A stretch of 64,000 nucleotides of DNA from Fischerella sp. CENA71 (GTDB lineage: Bacteria > Cyanobacteriota > Cyanobacteriia > Cyanobacteriales > Nostocaceae), in the NCBI GenBank assembly GCA_024239075.1, contig JANBVI010000027.1, positions 467,968 through 531,967 of the forward strand, in the 5' to 3' direction. Position 1 is the first letter of the stretch; every line of letters starts with the position of its first letter. The notes beneath the pieces were generated by a model. It saw only the letters and a program-made list of their open reading frames with translations, made no database searches and was not told where the DNA came from. The position numbers and the translations under genes are program-made. This document shows positions 54,451-64,000 of the stretch, one piece after another.

Positions 54451-56175
54451 TTAATCATTCCAAAGTGCCAAGGAAGGCGTGAGCATATTTCTTAACTGAT
54501 AAACATTTTTCACAGCCAACCAATTACTAGCAATAGGCATTCGCCAACCAGTACCAAAAGCACGATCTGTAATTTTTAATCCTGGGGGTGCTTGTCGCCG
54601 CTTGAATTCCGCTCTAGCTACCATTTTGATCACTTTATCAACAACGGCTGCATCGTGTCCAGCGCTGATAATTTGGGCGGGTGATTGGTGATCTTGAATT
54701 AGGCGTTGCAAGATATCGTCGAGAATATCGTATGGGGGTAGAGAATCTTGGTCAACCTGACCCGGCTTAAGTTCGGCGCTGGGTGCTTTGGTAAGGACGT
54801 TGTCAGGAATAATTTCGCCATTGCGGTTTAACCAGCGACATAGTGCATACACACGGGTTTTGGGAACATCGGCTATAACTGCTAAACCACCATTCATGTC
54901 ACCGTAAAGGGTGCAGTAACCAACAGCCATTTCTGATTTGTTACCTGTTGAGAGGAGAAGATGACCAAATTTATTAGAGATAGCCATCAATAAGTTACCC
55001 CGAATTCGGGATTGAATATTTTCTTCTGCTAGTCCAAACTCAGTATCAGCAAATAAATCTGCAAAGATTTTGTCATATACTTGCATTAAATCTCCGATGG
55101 GCAAGGTATGAGTTTTGATACCAAGATTTGCTGCCAATGCCAAAGCATCAGTGACGGAATGGTCGGAACTGTGGGGAGAAGGCATAAGAACACCGAGGAC
55201 ATTTTCTTTACCAAGTGCTGCTGTGGCGATCGCAGCCACAACAGAAGAATCAATCCCACCACTCAAACCCAGAACTACTTGATTAAAACCACATTTACGG
55301 ACATAATCTCGTACACCTAAAACTAAAGCTTGCCAGATTTCTTCTTCTTCACACTCACAATTAGGTGCAATCAAACCTAACTTGAAATCCCGTGCTTCTT
55401 GATCAAATTCAATAATTGATAAATCAGTGTCAAATCCACGCGATCGACAAATAATTTCACCCTGACGATTTAATGCAAAACTCCTACCATCAAAAATTAA
55501 ATCATCATTTCCACCCACTTGGTTAGTATAAATTATTGGTTGACGAAAACGTACTGCACTGTGACTGAGCATGGCTTCGCGAAACCTTTGTTTGCTGAGG
55601 GTGTAAGGCGAAGCGGATAAATTCACAATCAAATCCACACCCAAAATTGCTAAATCAGCAATTGGGTTGACAGTGTAACTACGTTTGCCCCAAAATTCTT
55701 CATCATTCCACAAATCTTCGCAAACTGTGACACCAATATTGATGTCATCAAGAGTGAAATAATTAGCTTGCAAACCTGGTTCAAAATAGCGGTGTTCGTC
55801 AAAGACATCATAAGTAGGTAAAAGCCGCTTGTAAAAAATTTGTTTGACTTTACCCGCTTCTAACCAAGCGATACTATTAAATAAAGTTTTGCCACCAGTT
55901 TTTTTGGCTTGTAAATTTTCTTCTACAGTTCCAACTAATACTGCTAAATTAGGTGGTAAATCTCTAGCTAATTGTTGCAAGGTAATACTCATTGCTTCAA
56001 CAAAACTAGGATTTAATAATAAATCTCGTGGAGGATAGCCACACAAAGATAGTTCTGGTGTTAACAATAAACGCGCACCTTTTGCTACTGCTTGTTGTGC
56101 AGCCTCAAGGATTTTTTGGGCATTTTTTGGTAAATCACCAATGGTAGGATTGAGTTGAGCGATCGCAATTTTCAT
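54451..56175 (-). CDS. nadE: Glutamine-dependent NAD+ synthetase
   Basis: 574 residues from ATG 56175; a TTG start is 9 bp upstream. The N-terminal nitrilase-like glutaminase domain has the catalytic triad Glu41 (TPELSLCGY), Lys116 (YKRLLPTYDVFDE) and Cys152 (VCEDLW). The C-terminal synthetase has the pyrophosphate loop SGGIDSSV (305-312). It adds ammonia from glutamine to nicotinate adenine dinucleotide (NaAD), the last step of NAD synthesis. It lies 3' of the NrtR-like gene and is the last gene of the pncB-nadD-nrtR-nadE operon. Confidence 0.96.
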   Translation of the reverse strand: MKIAIAQLNPTIGDLPKNAQKILEAAQQAVAKGARLLLTPELSLCGYPPRDLLLNPSFVEAMSITLQQLARDLPPNLAVLVGTVEENLQAKKTGGKTLFNSIAWLEAGKVKQIFYKRLLPTYDVFDEHRYFEPGLQANYFTLDDINIGVTVCEDLWNDEEFWGKRSYTVNPIADLAILGVDLIVNLSASPYTLSKQRFREAMLSHSAVRFRQPIIYTNQVGGNDDLIFDGRSFALNRQGEIICRSRGFDTDLSIIEFDQEARDFKLGLIAPNCECEEEEIWQALVLGVRDYVRKCGFNQVVLGLSGGIDSSVVAAIATAALGKENVLGVLMPSPHSSDHSVTDALALAANLGIKTHTLPIGDLMQVYDKIFADLFADTEFGLAEENIQSRIRGNLLMAISNKFGHLLLSTGNKSEMAVGYCTLYGDMNGGLAVIADVPKTRVYALCRWLNRNGEIIPDNVLTKAPSAELKPGQVDQDSLPPYDILDDILQRLIQDHQSPAQIISAGHDAAVVDKVIKMVARAEFKRRQAPPGLKITDRAFGTGWRMPIASNWLAVKNVYQLRNMLTPSLALWND

Positions 56176-56186
56176 AATAGTCAATA

Positions 56187-56262
56187 ATCAAGGGTCAATG
56201 GTCAATAGTCAATGGTCAATAGTCATTACTTTTGACTATGGACTCTTGACTATTGACACCGC
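56187..56262. repeat. TAGTCAATGGTCAA-type heptamer repeat in the nrtR-nadE gap
   Basis: Tandem GGTCAATAGTCAATGGTCAA units are followed by their inverse TTGACTATGGACTCTTGAC. The repeat may form a stem between nrtR and nadE. Confidence 0.8.
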
Positions 56263-56270
56263 GTAGCGGT

Positions 56271-57017
56271 TTAAATAAAAACCAATGGTTTATCCTTAAA
56301 AGGGGCAAATGCTTCTGCATCAAATCGATATAAACTAGCTGGACGCCCTGCACCTCGTGATACTTTAATACCCGTATCGCATAAAAAACCTAACTTGAGT
56401 AAACGCGCCCGAAAATTAGAATAATCAGAAAAATTTTCTCCTAAAACAGTAGTGTACAACTGATATAAATCATTTAAAGTAAATGTTTCTGGCAAAACTT
56501 CAAAAGCTACCGGACTATACTCTAATTTATTTTTTAAACGTCTGTGTCCATATGCCAAAATTTCATTATGGTCAAAAGCTAATTGTGGAACTCGTTTGAC
56601 TGGATACCAAGCGATACCAGCAACTTTGTCAGCAATTAATTCGGCTTCTTCATATCGCACCAAAGCAAAATAACTGACACTGAGATAACGTACTCCATAA
56701 CTATCGGTTGCTTCTCTTGGATCACGACTGGGTCCACCAAAACTATATAATTGCTCTAAATAAAGATTCTTGACTTTGATTTTTTCAGCCAGAATGCGAT
56801 AAGCGGCGTCTTCTAAAGATTCGCCTCGACGTACCAAAGTACCTGGAAGACCCCAATAATTTACATAGGGTTCCTGTTGGCGCATGATTAATAGTACTAG
56901 CAGTCGATTTTGAGCAGTATCTACTGAAAAAATTACATTGTCAACACCGACTTTGAAATCAGCCAAAGGTTGTTGATTTAGCGTATCTGCAAGCTTTTTC
57001 TGGATGCGTCCTGGCAT
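56271..57017 (-). CDS. nrtR: NrtR-type Nudix-winged-helix regulator of NAD metabolism
   Basis: 248 residues. The N-terminal Nudix domain (about 20-155) has GESLEDAAYRILAEKIKV in place of the catalytic box GxxxxxExxxxxxxREUxEE; the key Glu residues read Ile and Lys, so the fold most likely binds ADP-ribose without cleaving it. A C-terminal winged-helix DNA-binding domain follows (about 165-248: RARLLKLGFLCDTGIKVSRG). NrtR proteins of this make-up repress NAD genes and let go of DNA when they bind ADP-ribose. It overlaps nadD by 40 bp. A 21-bp palindrome lies before pncB, the operon start. Confidence 0.88.
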   Translation of the reverse strand: MPGRIQKKLADTLNQQPLADFKVGVDNVIFSVDTAQNRLLVLLIMRQQEPYVNYWGLPGTLVRRGESLEDAAYRILAEKIKVKNLYLEQLYSFGGPSRDPREATDSYGVRYLSVSYFALVRYEEAELIADKVAGIAWYPVKRVPQLAFDHNEILAYGHRRLKNKLEYSPVAFEVLPETFTLNDLYQLYTTVLGENFSDYSNFRARLLKLGFLCDTGIKVSRGAGRPASLYRFDAEAFAPFKDKPLVFI

Positions 57018-57577
57018 TTGTACAAATGCTGTTGATTAATATAGTCAATTACAGGGGGTGTGAGAGCTTCGGGATCTCCACTGTTACGATAAGCTGTAGA
57101 GGATACATCTGGAGCATGTAAGTCAGCGATCGCTATTTTTGCTCCGAGTTCTTCCACAGTCTGTAAACTGGATTGATCTATGATATATCCCGGTCGTGGT
57201 ACAACCAAAAGTTGAACTTGGTGTAACAAATCTTCAACTCGATACCAACGTGGTAGTTGAGAAACTAAATCTGAACCAATTACTAAAGTAAATTCTGTTT
57301 CTGTTCCCCAACGCTGTTTGGCTTTATCCAAAGTTTCTAAAGTTCTGAAACTGCTCAGTTCTTGTTCCAGACTAATATTATGCTGGGGTGAATGTATATC
57401 ATCTATGAGTAGATGCAACATTGCTACCCGATGCTGCAAAAGGGTTTGATGGGATTTAAAAGGATTATCAGCCGCCCAAATGACTACACGATCATAATGC
57501 TGTGATAACCATTTAATTATCGCTTGATGTCCAGCAGTTGGTGGATCAGCACTAGTTCCAAATAAGGCTATTTTCAT
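56978..57577 (-). CDS. nadD: Nicotinate-nucleotide adenylyltransferase
   Basis: 199 residues. LFGTSADPPTAGHQAII carries the nucleotidyltransferase HxGH-type motif, VIGSDLVSQLPRWYRV binds the substrate, and DVSSTAYR is the ISSTxxR-type motif. The enzyme joins nicotinate mononucleotide and ATP into deamido-NAD. It is flanked by pncB and nrtR on the same strand and overlaps nrtR, giving tight coupling. Length is normal for NadD. Confidence 0.93.
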   Translation of the reverse strand: MKIALFGTSADPPTAGHQAIIKWLSQHYDRVVIWAADNPFKSHQTLLQHRVAMLHLLIDDIHSPQHNISLEQELSSFRTLETLDKAKQRWGTETEFTLVIGSDLVSQLPRWYRVEDLLHQVQLLVVPRPGYIIDQSSLQTVEELGAKIAIADLHAPDVSSTAYRNSGDPEALTPPVIDYINQQHLYKCQDASRKSLQIR

Positions 57578-57618
57578 TTATTTGTTATTTGTTATTTGTT
57601 ATTTGTCATTTGTCATTG
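57578..57618. repeat. TTGTTATTTGTTATTTG heptamer repeat, pncB-nadD gap
   Basis: Tandem TTTGTTA units fill the 58 bp between pncB and nadD. It belongs to the same heptamer family as 7681-7718 (reverse complement). Confidence 0.8.
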
Positions 57619-57635
57619 GGAATGGTTAATAACTA

Positions 57636-59015
57636 CTAACCGCTAACCAATGCTGGTTTTTTCTTGGTTTCTTCTGTCAAGTTATGCAATTTTTCAGATA
57701 ATTCCATTTGTACTGGTATGGGATTTTCTAAATATCGAGTTTGTTCGGGTAAACTTGCTACGGAAGCGGCGGTACGCTGGCGAATTGTTGCTAAGTTTTC
57801 TGGTGGTTGTATCCGTTTTCCTGCTTCCATGAATAATTGCAATAAAGGTAATCCTCCCAAATTACTTTCATCTGCTAATCCCAAACAATCTGCTTTGACT
57901 TTACCTGCAACAGAAGAACGAAAAACTTGTTTGCGCCCCGGATAAGTCATCTTACCACTTGATTCTTTCATTACCGGAATGCCATTGATTTCTACTAATT
58001 TATAGACTCCGTTTACAGGTTTTCCGGTGACGAGTTTGGTTCCCACGCCATAGCTATCAATTTCAGCGCCTGCATTTTTCAAAGATAGAATTTCTTGTTC
58101 ATCTAAGTCGCCACTAGCAACTATTGATACACATGGTAGAAGCGATCGCACTTTTTTTGATAATCCTACTAAATCACCAGAGTCTAACCTCACCCCAGTC
58201 AATTTCATTTTTCCAGAGTTGACTTTAAGAGCTAATCGTTCCGCAGCAGCAATCGTATCGTAAGTATCAATTAACAAGGTTGCACCTGGAAAATATTGTT
58301 GAAATGCAGCAAAAGCTTGATCTTCGCTACCTTCGGTTGCTGTCAGTGCCATTACTAAAGCGTGTGCCATCGTACCACTTGGTTTCTCGCCCAGTTGTAG
58401 CGCTGCTAACACGTTAGATGTTGCATCAAAACCAGCTGCCAATGCTGCCCTTGCTGCCCACAAAGCCCCTTGGGGACTAAACGCCCGTCGAGTACCAAAT
58501 TCCAGCAAATTTGCTTGTTCACCCGCTACATCACGCATTCTAGCAGCCCTTGTGGCAATTAATGTCTGGTAGTTGAGGGTGTTAAGTAGATAAGTTTCCA
58601 CCAGTTGTGCTTGCCATAAAGGTGCTTCTACTCGTAACAGTGGTTGATTGGTAAACACTGCTGTACCTTCTGATACTGCCCAGACATCCCCGCTAAAACT
58701 TTCTGATTCTAGCAGTGACCAAAAGTTTTTTGGTGCATGAGCAAAAATTCCCGTTGCACGCAAAGCTTCTATATGAGTGGGAGTAAAGCGAAATTTTTCT
58801 AAATATTCCAACGCTTGGGCTAGCCCCATGGCAATTAAATAGCCAAAACCCTCTGGTAATTTTCTCACAAATAACTCAAAGCTTGCCCGTTGTTGTTCTA
58901 CACCTTCACCAGCATAACAAGCTGCCATTGTCAGCTGGTAAAGGTCTGTCAATAGGCTGTAATCTTCTGAACGCGGTATTAATTCCTGGTTCAATGTCCC
59001 TGGGTAACACGTCAT
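57636..59015 (-). CDS. pncB: Nicotinate phosphoribosyltransferase
   Basis: 459 residues. It opens the Preiss-Handler salvage route: nicotinate + PRPP + ATP to nicotinate mononucleotide. LLTDLYQLTMAACY is the N-terminal signature; EFGTRRAFSPQGAL, TMAHALVMAL and GVRLDSGDLVGLSKKVR (with the PRPP site) follow. GVGTKLVTG is the C-terminal active-site block. It is the first gene of the operon with nadD, nrtR and nadE; a 21-bp palindrome just upstream is a fit for NrtR control. Confidence 0.95.
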   Translation of the reverse strand: MTCYPGTLNQELIPRSEDYSLLTDLYQLTMAACYAGEGVEQQRASFELFVRKLPEGFGYLIAMGLAQALEYLEKFRFTPTHIEALRATGIFAHAPKNFWSLLESESFSGDVWAVSEGTAVFTNQPLLRVEAPLWQAQLVETYLLNTLNYQTLIATRAARMRDVAGEQANLLEFGTRRAFSPQGALWAARAALAAGFDATSNVLAALQLGEKPSGTMAHALVMALTATEGSEDQAFAAFQQYFPGATLLIDTYDTIAAAERLALKVNSGKMKLTGVRLDSGDLVGLSKKVRSLLPCVSIVASGDLDEQEILSLKNAGAEIDSYGVGTKLVTGKPVNGVYKLVEINGIPVMKESSGKMTYPGRKQVFRSSVAGKVKADCLGLADESNLGGLPLLQLFMEAGKRIQPPENLATIRQRTAASVASLPEQTRYLENPIPVQMELSEKLHNLTEETKKKPALVSG

Positions 59016-59327: not shown

Positions 59328-59510
59328 TTAGTCAAGATTTTTCTTGATATTGTCTTTAACGTCTTCTACAGAGTGACGTACTTCACTTTCTGCTTGCTTG
59401 GTTTTACCTTCTGCTTTATCTTCTGGATCTCCAGTCACATTTCCCCACGCTTCTTGAGCTTTACCTTCTACATTTTTAGCTGTAGCTTTTGCTCTATCTT
59501 CTAAACTCAT
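59328..59510 (-). CDS. CsbD-family stress protein
   Basis: 60 residues, highly charged and helical: MSLEDRAKATAKNVEGKAQE, AWGNVTGDPEDKAEGKTKQA and ESEVRHSVEDVKDNIKKNLD. The GKAQEAWGNVTGD core is the CsbD signature. CsbD proteins are made in general stress responses; the molecular role is unknown. AAGGAGAG lies 8 bp before the ATG. Single gene. Confidence 0.92.
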   Translation of the reverse strand: MSLEDRAKATAKNVEGKAQEAWGNVTGDPEDKAEGKTKQAESEVRHSVEDVKDNIKKNLD

Positions 59511-59905: not shown

Positions 59906-60364
59906 CTAATCCAAATAACCCATCAAAAATTCGGAATCATCAATAGTATTTGATGCTACTGGACGATTACCCATTACAGAATAGGTTTCAGAAATTACCA
60001 GAGAACTAGAGGCGATAGGGCGAATTCCAGACAAATTCATTGTATCAACTACATGCATTGTGTTTGCGGCAATAGGACGCAAACCCATAATGTTCATTGT
60101 TTCTACAACTTGCAAGCTACTTGTACTAATGGGGCGTACTCCAGCAATCGAGACTGTCTCAGCTACTTGCAAATCGCTAGCAGCAATGGGACGTACGCCA
60201 GCAATAGCGAGTGTATCAGTTACTTCTAATTTATCGGACGAGTTTGCTTGCTCTGTATTTGAGTTTTCAACTTTGTTATTTTCGACTTCCACTGTAGTTT
60301 CCCCCTTCAATTTGGCACGCTTTTGGCTAGGACTTACTGCCTTACCATTGCTGCTGACAGCCAT
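59906..60364 (-). CDS. Protein of five 19-residue GxRPIA repeats, unknown function
   Basis: 152 residues. A polar, basic-then-acidic N-terminus (1-45) leads to five perfect-length 19-residue repeats at 46-64, 65-83, 84-102, 103-121 and 122-140. Their shared pattern is an aliphatic start, V-x-(D/E)-T-h-x-h, then G-(V/L/I/N)-R-P-(I/V)-(A/S), and a Ser/Asn/Thr end; examples are LQVAETVSIAGVRPI and MHVVDTMNLSGIRPI. The C-terminus is acidic (IDDSEFLMGYLD). No signal peptide, cysteine or membrane segment is present. I do not recognise the family. AGAGGT lies before the ATG and a terminator follows, so it forms a single transcript. A beta-solenoid or short-strand repeat fold is possible. Confidence 0.75.
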   Translation of the reverse strand: MAVSSNGKAVSPSQKRAKLKGETTVEVENNKVENSNTEQANSSDKLEVTDTLAIAGVRPIAASDLQVAETVSIAGVRPISTSSLQVVETMNIMGLRPIAANTMHVVDTMNLSGIRPIASSSLVISETYSVMGNRPVASNTIDDSEFLMGYLD

Positions 60365-60594
60365 AAACTAATACCTCTAGATTGTTAAGTATTTTTTACA
60401 AAAATTCAACCTAAGTGAAGTTTTTTCTATATATCTCAGTTTAACTTTAAAAAAGATTGTATATCTATAGGGTTGTTTAAAAACTACACATAAGTAAAAA
60501 TCAATTGGCTGGGGATCGGAGATCCCCTTTCCCCGACTCCAGTCTCTATTCGCTACTATGAGATAGGTATTTAGGGTATTTAGAGCAACACTGC

Positions 60595-62592
60595 ATGACA
60601 AAATTTTGTCTTCAAGCACCCTTCAGTCCAACCGGCGATCAGCCACAAGCGATCGCACAGCTAGTTCGTAGTATTCAAAGTCACAATGGTTATCAGACAT
60701 TACTAGGCGCAACTGGAACCGGGAAGACATTTACAGTCGCATCAGTGATTGAAAAAGTCGGTAAACCGACTTTAGTACTGGCGCACAATAAAACCCTCGC
60801 AGCACAGCTTTGTAATGAGTTGCGAGAATTCTTTCCTAACAATGCTGTTGAGTACTTCGTTAGTTACTATGACTATTATCAACCAGAAGCGTACATTCCT
60901 GTAACTGATACTTATATTGAAAAAACAGCATCTATCAACGATGAGATAGATATGTTGCGACACTCAGCAACGCGATCGCTATTTGAACGGCGTGATGTGA
61001 TTGTTGTGGCGTCGATTAGCTGTATCTATGGTTTGGGAATTCCCTCAGAATATCTCAAGGCTGCGATTCCTTTCCAAGTAGGAATGGAAGTTAACCAAAG
61101 GCAAATTTTGCGAGATTTAGCCTCAGTACAATACAGCCGTAATGATATGGAAATAGGACGGGGACGTTTTCGCGTCCGGGGTGATGTCCTGGAAATCGGC
61201 CCAGCATACGAAGATCGGATTATTCGGATTGAGTTCTTTGGTGATGAAATCGACGCTATTCGTTACGTCGATCCAGTGACAGGTGAAATTCTCCAAAGTT
61301 TACAAGCAGTCAATCTCTATCCAGCGCGTCACTTTGTGACACCAGAAGAAAGATTAGAAGAAGCATGTGATGCGATCGCTCAAGAATTAAAAGAACGTAA
61401 AGCAGAATTAGAATCAGTCGGAAAATTACTCGAAGCGCAAAGAATAGATCAGCGTACCCGCTATGACTTAGAAATGTTGCGCGAAGTTGGTTATTGCAAC
61501 GGTGTAGAAAACTATTCTCGCCACCTAGCAGGAAGACAAGCCGGTGAACCACCAGAATGTTTAATTGATTATTTTCCCAAAGATTGGTTGTTAGTCATTG
61601 ATGAATCTCACGTTACCGTACCCCAAATTAGAGGTATGTATAACGGTGATCAAGCTAGGAAAAAAGTCTTGATTGAGCATGGTTTCCGCTTACCTAGCGC
61701 TGCGGATAACCGACCTTTAAAAGCCGAAGAATTTTGGTCAAAAGTTAATCAATGTATTTTTGTTTCTGCAACCCCAGGAGATTGGGAATTAGAAATTTCC
61801 GACGGACATATAGCCGAGCAAATAATTCGACCAACTGGCGTTCTTGATCCAGAAATTATTGTCCGTCCCACCGAAGGACAAATTGATGATTTATTAGGTG
61901 AAATTAAAGATCGAGTAGACCGTCATGAACGAGTGTTAATCACCACATTAACTAAGCGGATGGCAGAAGATTTAACAGATTATCTGCAAGAAAATAGTAT
62001 TCGCGTTAGGTATTTGCACTCTGAAATTAACTCAATTGAAAGAATAGAAATTATCCAAAACTTGCGCGATGCTAGCTTTGATGTTTTGGTTGGTGTCAAC
62101 TTATTACGAGAAGGTTTGGATTTACCAGAAGTTTCTTTAGTTGCAATTTTAGATGCAGATAAAGAAGGTTTTTTACGTGCCGAACGTTCCTTAATTCAAA
62201 CTATTGGAAGAGCAGCGCGTCACGTCCGAGGACAAGCGATTATGTATGCAGATAATCTCACCGACAGCATGATTAAAGCCATTGATGAAACCGAACGGCG
62301 TCGCGGAATTCAAATGGCGTATAACAAGATGCACGGAATTACACCCCAACCGATTGTGAAAAAATCGAGTAATGCAATCTTGTCTTTCTTGGAAGTTTCT
62401 CGACGGTTAAATGCTCAAGAAATAGAAACAGTTGATCAACATATAGATGAACTACCGTTAGAAAATATTCCACAGTTGATTACACAATTAGAAGCACAAA
62501 TGAAAGAAGCGGCGAAGAAATTAGAGTTTGAGGAGGCGGCGAAGTTACGGGATAAGATTAAGCATTTGCGGGATAAATTAGTAGGGCGTTAA
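60595..62592 (+). CDS. uvrB: Excinuclease ABC subunit B
   Basis: 665 residues, usual length. UvrB takes over damaged DNA from UvrA and loads UvrC. Walker A is GATGTGKTF; the beta-hairpin that clamps DNA is in [22 protein letters not shown] is motif [18 protein letters not shown] is motif VI; the C-terminal UVR motif is [20 protein letters not shown], which binds UvrC. All are intact. Together with mfd elsewhere in the window it supports transcription-coupled repair. Single gene; a degenerate palindromic repeat follows its stop. Confidence 0.97.
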
Positions 62593-62648: not shown

Positions 62649-64000
62649 CTAACGCCACAACCAAGAACGAACCCAACGCCACAACCGACTCAACCACCCC
62701 CAAAACCCGCGACGGGGTGTAACAACAGGTGCTAGCGGGTGTGAAAGATGATTAATTTCATTGTTGCAACGTTGAACCATTGCATCAAGTCCCATTGCTT
62801 GATAAAGTTCACAAGCATTACGATAAGCACCCATCGCATCTGATTGGCGATTGACTTTTTCTAACACCAAACCTAAATTAAACCAAGAATTAGCTTGTCC
62901 AGAGACATCGTCTATTTGTGTAGTGATATCTAAAGATTGCTGGTAGAAGTTTATCGCCCTTTGATATTCTCCCAGGGAACCGTAAGCAATACCTAAACCA
63001 ATTAAAGAACTAGCTTGTCCAGAGACATCGCCTATTTGTCTAGTGATATCTAAAGATTGCTGCAAGAAGTTTATCACCCTTTGATATTCTCCCAGGCAAT
63101 TGTAAGCATTACCCAAACCAATTAAAGAATCAGCTTGTCCCTTGCGATCGCCTATTTGTGCTGCAATATCTAAAGATTGCTGGTAGAAGTTTATCGCCGT
63201 TTGATATTCTCCCAGGGAATTGTAAGCATTACCCAAATTACCTAAAGAATTAGCTTGTCCAGAGCGATCGCCTATTTGTATTTTGATATCTAAAGATTGC
63301 TGGTAGAAGTTTATCGCCGTTTGATATTCTCCCAGGGAATAGTAAGTATTACCCAAATTATTTAAAGAATTAGCTTGTCCCTTGCGATCACCTATTTGTG
63401 TCGCTATTTCTAAAGATTGCTGGTAGAAGTTTATCGCCGTTTGATATTCTCCCAGGGAATTGTAAGCATTACCCAAATTACCTAAAGAATTAGCTTGTCC
63501 AGAGCGATCGCCTATTTGTGTCGCTATTTCTAAAGATTGCTGCAAGAAGTTTATCGCCGTTTGATATTCTCCCAGGGAATTGTAAGCATTACCCAGATTA
63601 TTTAAATAATTAGCTTGTCCAGAGCGATCACCTATTTGTGTCGCTATTTCTAAAGATTGCTTGTAGAACTGTATTGCCTGTTGATATTCTCCCAGAGATT
63701 TGTAAGCAACACCCAAATTGCCTAAAGAAGCCTCTTGTCCAGAACGATCTCCTATTTGTGTTGCTATTTCTAAAGATTGCTGGTGGAAGTATATCGCCGT
63801 TTGATATTCTCCCAGGGAATTGTAAGCATTACCCACATTATTTAAATAATTAGCTTGTCCAGAGCGATCACCTATTTGTGGCGCTATTTCTAAAGATTGC
63901 TTGTAGAACTGTATTGCCTGTTGATATTCTCCCAGAGATTTGTAAGCAACACCCAAATTGCCTAAAGAAGCCTCTTGTCCAGAACGATCACCTATTTGTG
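62649..64000 (-). CDS. TPR-repeat protein with near-identical 40-residue units (cut by window end)
   Basis: The frame is open to the right edge, so the N-terminus is outside; 450 residues are visible. About ten 40-residue tetratricopeptide units of the kinesin-light-chain type run from the edge to about 62880, e.g. LGNAYNSLGEYQTAINFYQQ and SLEIATQIGDRSGQAN. Neighbouring units are almost identical in DNA too (period 120 bp). The end is different: a last divergent TPR, an RNxxCELYQ helix and a Trp/Arg-rich tail (WGWLSRLWRWVRSWLWR) that may touch a membrane. Such tails and units occur in large TPR-CHAT or TPR-NB-ARC proteins; the domain in front is not visible. Confidence 0.85.
   Translation of the reverse strand, partial: QIGDRSGQEASLGNLGVAYKSLGEYQQAIQFYKQSLEIAPQIGDRSGQANYLNNVGNAYNSLGEYQTAIYFHQQSLEIATQIGDRSGQEASLGNLGVAYKSLGEYQQAIQFYKQSLEIATQIGDRSGQANYLNNLGNAYNSLGEYQTAINFLQQSLEIATQIGDRSGQANSLGNLGNAYNSLGEYQTAINFYQQSLEIATQIGDRKGQANSLNNLGNTYYSLGEYQTAINFYQQSLDIKIQIGDRSGQANSLGNLGNAYNSLGEYQTAINFYQQSLDIAAQIGDRKGQADSLIGLGNAYNCLGEYQRVINFLQQSLDITRQIGDVSGQASSLIGLGIAYGSLGEYQRAINFYQQSLDITTQIDDVSGQANSWFNLGLVLEKVNRQSDAMGAYRNACELYQAMGLDAMVQRCNNEINHLSHPLAPVVTPRRGFWGWLSRLWRWVRSWLWR
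62880..64000. repeat. 120-bp tandem repeat array encoding TPR units
   Basis: About nine copies of a 120-bp unit. Conserved segments are CTTTAGATATTG-like CTAAAGATTGCTGGTAGAAG and TTTGATATTCTCCCAGGGAA. Units differ at few bases, mostly at three spots, which suggests recent duplication or gene conversion. Confidence 0.92.

Follow-up and report, generated by a model that had tools for sequence, protein, structure and literature searches.

A 64,000-nucleotide stretch of Fischerella sp. CENA71 (hereafter the window) carries, on its reverse strand, a gene for a small protein made largely of 19-residue units, each with an Arg-Pro pair, and closed by a short conserved tail. This gene (hereafter the repeat gene) mostly goes with form IB RuBisCO and beta-carboxysome genes, is absent where alpha-carboxysomes are found, and is decayed where photosynthesis has been lost. 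This pattern makes its product a candidate for a soluble structural adaptor, not an enzyme, acting together with the beta-type CO2-fixation system (form IB RuBisCO and the beta-carboxysome, or the feeding Calvin-cycle enzymes), a tentative reading to which we give somewhat less than an even chance. With such a distribution, the protein would be a ready candidate for a part that assembles, spaces or positions the carbon-fixing machinery. A bolder version is rather doubtful: the protein would be a near-universal, unrecognised structural component or organiser of beta-cyanobacterial RuBisCO and carboxysomes, a solenoid ladder with a docking peptide, missed since no domain model covers it and its gene is not part of the ccm or rbc operons. 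In our judgement, few new conserved carboxysome parts are to be expected after close study.

Distribution and decay of the repeat gene

The sample comprised 386 genomes of the phylum, searched with profile A1 and, for selected genomes, with the broader profile A4. RuBisCO_small domains occur in 186 of these genomes and CsoS2 in 57, all of family f25. Profile A1 matched 121 of the 129 genomes that have RuBisCO_small but lack CsoS2. It did not match any of the 57 genomes with CsoS2 (alpha-carboxysome) or any of the 200 others; the repeat family and CsoS2 never stand together in one genome. For the 121 genomes, 30 loci and 80 stretches were retrieved (some genomes twice), the rest being counted from the match table. 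Among them, G062 and G308 have matches of a second type only (described below), G147 and G268 have decayed copies, and G284 and G170 have a stop in the matched stretch. Profile A4 revealed a member or a remnant in five of the eight A1-negative genomes (G183, G085, G241, G177 and G332), and G051 is not judgeable, a stretch of its sequence reading N. When applied to 16 alpha-carboxysome genomes, A4 gave four matches (E 0.018-0.47), the best of which (G239), the sole one read, lies in a frame that looks like an unrelated enzyme and was rejected; seven genomes from outside the class gave no match.

Genome G147 is taken to be the spheroid body of Epithemia turgida, in which rbcL and rbcS are pseudogenes (PMC5638926; this and the other papers cited are drawn on in part). 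Its repeat gene contains four stops. In the same genus, the repeat gene of G183 has five stops, and that of G268 has two of four Arg-Pro pairs changed and its tail gone. The genes for RuBisCO, photosystem II (PSII) and the shell are all fragmentary or stop-bearing in the three genomes, and G183 and G268 are presumably diatom endosymbionts as well. The free-living relative G143, taken as Cyanothece PCC 8801, has intact RuBisCO, PSII, shell and repeat genes.

The repeat protein and its family

The layout of the repeat gene and its upstream side is as follows.

59906..60364, minus strand: whole open reading frame (ORF) of the 152-residue repeat protein, stop included, set by its translation and orthologues
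60236..60364, minus strand: N-terminal low-complexity region, residues 1-43, isoelectric point 8.1, predicted local distance difference test score (pLDDT) mostly <50
60179..60235, minus strand: repeat unit 1, residues 44-62
60122..60178, minus strand: repeat unit 2, residues 63-81
60065..60121, minus strand: repeat unit 3, residues 82-100
60008..60064, minus strand: repeat unit 4, residues 101-119
59951..60007, minus strand: repeat unit 5, residues 120-138
59909..59950, minus strand: C-terminal tail, residues 139-152, with LMGYLD at the carboxy end; conserved, putative docking peptide
60365..60594, no strand: intergenic spacer separating uvrB from the divergent repeat gene
60595..62592, plus strand: uvrB, divergent neighbour in many loci; a linkage, not necessarily a shared function

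The five units (residues 44-138, positions 59951-60235) are exactly 19 residues long, and every one contains G-x-R-P-I/V. An earlier note on the window had called them exact repeats, which is right for their length and wrong for their sequences: any two of them agree at 6-11 residues out of 19 and, in the DNA, at 44-68% of the 57 bases. The array of 57-bp units that it placed at 59945-60229 differs from the present one only in phase. Shifted by 19 residues against itself, the protein is identical at 40 of 133 positions, whereas 20,000 shuffles averaged 9.2 and never exceeded 22. Units that occupy equivalent positions in different sequences of alignment A7 are 77% identical (1,051 comparisons), whereas units at different positions are 41% identical (3,830 comparisons) and units inside one protein 42% (169 comparisons); thus, the array is old, with each unit keeping its own sequence, and does not stem from a fresh duplication. 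In six codon comparisons with the window, changes at third codon positions exceed those at second positions (13 v 2, 40 v 9, 61 v 14, 52 v 10, 60 v 13 and 54 v 19), which fits purifying selection on the repeat gene. Both results bear out the earlier view of diverged copies under selection, and the ORF translation is cysteine-free, as had been said. Residues 1-43 vary in length and sequence among relatives.

A scan of genome contigs yielded 25 relatives, all from cyanobacterial records. Spacing was counted in 133 distinct proteins that have two or more RP (or KP) pairs, a set that takes in near relatives and one decayed copy. The distance between pairs is exactly 19 in 433 of 528 cases and 16, 17, 18 or 20 in 79 of the other 95. 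The pairs number two to nine per protein, mostly four to six, and the family overall has one to nine units; the variation in repeat number that the earlier note proposed to look for is therefore present between species and extends to a one-unit form. Main-type units were selected by an RP pair before I, V, M, L, T or F. Of the 591 so defined, 84% have Gly at -2, 97% have Ile or Val after RP and 88% have Ser or Asn at +5; hydrophobic positions partly alternate, strand-like, at -6/-4 and +7/+9. The Arg-Pro pair, which the earlier note had singled out, is near-invariant among relatives.

The carboxy end is as well conserved as the repeat. The motif [LMI][MIL]G[FY][LIVM]D closes 121 of the 133 proteins, and an aromatic-aliphatic-Asp ending is found in 128; the decayed copies L119 and L131 are left out of the latter count, of the residue frequencies in the 591 units and of the lag-19 comparison. 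In a mini-protein encoded by G085 and G241, only one RPV unit is left beside the LMGYLD tail, which hints at the tail as the functional core. The mini-protein is seen in loci L157 and L158, with about 56 residues from the ATG in the latter. Units are present without the conserved tail in G177 and G332. The tail and the link with RuBisCO and carboxysome gene content were both absent from the earlier note. The tail was also considered as a general sorting tag, which was rejected: a search of the window's own genome for the DNA pattern that encodes LMG[FY]-x-D-stop hit the repeat gene alone.

A second type, whose units resemble IDGxRPI and whose end resembles DY[IMV]D, is found in L028-L030, L098, L120, L121, L125 and L136-L138, partly on Nostocales plasmids, and has up to nine units (L098); seven of its ten distinct sequences end in aromatic-aliphatic-Asp. 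Nine plasmid records match the family. Of four copies examined from them, three carry the second type, with the ends DYID, SYMD and DYVD, and the fourth looks broken and is nearer the main type. No relative was found in the viral contigs or phages searched, and a viral origin of the repeat gene was rejected on this ground.

Searches of Pfam, NCBIfam and PDB sequences gave no credible relative and confirmed no curated family above its cut-off, in agreement with the earlier statement that no named family has this unit. Matches to Lysostaphin_N, RelA_AH_RIS and TRM (one of 46 members each), to DUF881 (three of seven B-type members, best E 6.2e-5) and to AIDA-I repeats (four of 46 members, best E 6.7e-5) were judged to be chance or repeat-driven. 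Archaeal RNA polymerase matches in the PDB (E 0.06-0.09) were rejected, a profile search with E up to 1 giving none. No description of an RPI repeat family was found in the literature searched, which covers papers in part and leaves most subscription papers outside, and a word search of PMC11973430 and PMC13332109 for hypothetical or uncharacterized proteins gave nothing. As far as these searches reach, the RPI repeat family would thus be unnamed in the libraries and undescribed in the literature found.

Regulation and gene order

Close orthologues, 94-100% identical, are present in three Synechocystis genomes, and in one of these (locus L109) the repeat gene lies between a divergent uvrB and a formyltransferase gene taken for purN. 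We take slr0477 of Synechocystis PCC 6803 to be purN, and gene order then points to slr0476 as the presumed orthologue in that strain. There, uvrB is sll0459 (PMC5101192). According to the available part of PMC12014562, slr0476 is listed as an unknown protein in the RbcR regulon table beside rbcLXS, ccm, sbtA/B and ndh genes; sll1735, slr0006 and slr0007 are also in this table. Moreover, the slr0476 transcript drops under iron depletion (PMC3516471), and its protein is up in an slr1037 mutant and listed as hexane-responsive (PMC4057619, PMC3479031).

A phosphoribulokinase-family gene lies directly upstream of the repeat gene, on the same strand, in L088, L091 and L025. This linkage may be one event: L088 and L091 belong to one genus, and L025 is an Alkalinema record. 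No CcmM, CcmN or CcmO gene was found within the repeat-gene loci examined. Two more small unknown genes often lie downstream in relatives (L084, L076 and others; 40 and 35 of 139 loci), one of which starts like a lipoprotein and matches DUF6658 below cut-off.

Predicted fold and known systems

The structure prediction that the earlier note had proposed as a check came out in part: the AlphaFold2 model shows regularly arrayed units of two strands each, at a confidence that is only low to moderate (pLDDT 66). With moderate confidence, the array of 19-residue units is predicted to be a short beta-solenoid, one unit per turn, with the Arg-Pro pairs stacked on one edge. Neither of the findings that were to speak against the earlier note, namely a known family with this repeat or disorder throughout without Arg-Pro conservation, turned up. 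In a structure comparison, the highest-Z matches at low root mean square deviation were the bactofilins 6ria and 2n3d; the gamma-carbonic-anhydrase domain of CcmM ties in Z (10.4) but at 12.4 Å.

Bactofilins (PF04519) have a right-handed beta-solenoid core and polymerise independently of nucleotides. The repeat protein resembles them in its predicted beta-solenoid of similar size with unstructured ends and differs in its fixed 19-residue Gly-x-Arg-Pro unit, its one to nine units and its conserved carboxy-terminal peptide. AIDA-I autotransporter repeats (NF033176), passenger repeats that precede an autotransporter barrel, likewise have a unit of 19 residues and gave the matches mentioned above; however, the repeat protein has about 150 residues, no transporter domain match and, by eye, no signal peptide, and no autotransporter family matched the 46 and 25 members scanned. 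We know of no Arg-Pro pair per unit in AIDA-I. With CcmM, CcmN and CcmS the repeat protein would share the proposed pathway. In the repeat protein, flexible sequence closed by a short conserved end is reminiscent of the encapsulation peptide of CcmN; unlike CcmM, none of the 46 and 25 members matched RuBisCO_small (PF00101). EPYC1 is a tandem-unit RuBisCO linker, and with it and CsoS2 the repeat protein has in common its tandem units and a putative link to RuBisCO, whereas its unit spacing is rigid and CsoS2 genomes lack the family; CsoS2 repeats (PF12288) gave no match in the 46 and 25 members. CcmS, by its description an alpha/beta homodimer with five helices and four beta-sheets per monomer that binds the C-terminal extension of CcmK1 (PMC11635287), would differ from the strand array predicted here. 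The plan of the repeat protein would thus resemble that of known solenoid scaffolds, while sequence tests for bactofilin, CcmM and CsoS2 failed.

Proposed role and alternatives

The low-complexity N-terminus, the solenoid array and the C-terminal tail would offer three contact regions. The tail is read as a docking peptide because it forms the extreme carboxy end of nearly all members; it may dock on one partner and leave the Arg-Pro ladder and the N-terminus to touch others, so that the protein could tether or space parts of the carbon-fixing machinery. It might be made under the same control as the RuBisCO and carboxysome genes.

The decay shows that the repeat gene depends on photosynthesis or on carbon fixation, and does not tell which. 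Several results weigh against such an adaptor. For 114 main-type genes, the 600 upstream bases were searched for the RbcR motif ATTAR-N5-YTAAT, as quoted in the available part of PMC13249358. With at most one mismatch it precedes 29 of the 114, several of them near relatives, whereas 20 mononucleotide shuffles gave 22.3 on average and 28 at most; exact sites number 1 against 1.15 expected. The Synechocystis loci lack the motif at up to one mismatch, and none is listed at this threshold in the window's intergenic region. The motif is not convincingly enriched, and these results count against direct, conserved RbcR control. In addition, G159 and G374, both of family f7, are negative with A1 and A4 despite having RuBisCO_small. 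G159 keeps RbcL, RbcS, PSII, SSUL-type and BMC shell matches, and loss of the repeat gene therefore need not follow loss of the carboxysome. G374 has RbcL, RbcS and PSII matches and neither SSUL-type domains nor a BMC shell match, and may either come from a cyanobacterium that has no carboxysomes or be incompletely assembled; this genome (L162) has 2.2 Mb and no second RuBisCO_small match.

The case of G159 speaks for a general photosynthesis- or stress-linked scaffold in the cytosol or at the thylakoid surface, whose distribution would reflect photosynthetic lifestyle and phylogeny. Such a scaffold, which we consider unlikely yet worth keeping in view, would also suit the iron, slr1037 and hexane responses of slr0476, as well as the fact that the genomes with decayed copies have lost photosystem genes besides RuBisCO (PMC5638926). 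Against it, none of the 57 alpha-carboxysome cyanobacteria, which are presumed to be photosynthetic, carries the family; carbon fixation is also what the listing in the RbcR regulon and the linkage with phosphoribulokinase suggest. The earlier note had also named nucleic acid as a possible partner, and nothing was found pointing to it. A UvrB partner or nucleic-acid-binding DNA-repair protein is very improbable, although uvrB lies at most five ORFs away in 81 of 139 loci, as the immediate divergent neighbour in 74, and is nearby in 32 of the 80 distant loci (L060-L139), where the next neighbour cluster counts 10. The ranking sets aside a cluster of 16, histidine-kinase-like by eye and at mixed places. 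However, 48 of the 80 distant loci have no nearby uvrB (all these counts include paralogues and loci near contig ends), and all cyanobacteria examined in PMC5101192 (available part) have uvrABCD, yet the repeat gene is missing from the 57 alpha-carboxysome genomes. A full-length uvrB frame also stays beside the decayed copies in L119 and L131; because of this and the alpha-cyanobacterial absence, the divergent pairing is probably conserved gene order and uvrB only a neighbour.

Two further alternatives concern the fold. The protein could be a multivalent, flexible linker comparable to EPYC1 or to the N-terminus of CsoS2, with every unit serving as a short motif that binds one large partner and has no fixed fold alone. 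The low-complexity N-terminus, the modest pLDDT, the variable repeat number and the repeated, near-invariant Arg-Pro speak for this improbable arrangement, but the rigid spacing of the pairs, the separate sequence kept by every unit and the partial, strand-like alternation of hydrophobic positions favour a folded array. Slightly less probable still is a bactofilin-like polymer, in which solenoids would stack end to end as a filament and flexible tails attach. The structural matches invite it; no member of the 46 (E up to 0.1) or the 25 (E up to 1) matched PF04519, and one of seven B-type members did so at E 0.039, below the curated cut-off. The tie with CcmM, even at its large deviation, and the moderate confidence of the fold model weaken the comparison, and a one-unit form could hardly polymerise in this way.

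Other genes of the window

A CsbD-like gene (Pfam) adjoins the repeat gene at 59328-59510. Genes resembling those of nicotinamide adenine dinucleotide (NAD) metabolism occupy 54451-59015, including a nicotinate phosphoribosyltransferase gene (Pfam) and, by eye, NAD synthetase-like, Nudix-type and adenylyltransferase-like genes. On the minus strand at 62649-63998, and open at the window end, lies a gene for a TPR-like protein with many near-identical units (by eye).
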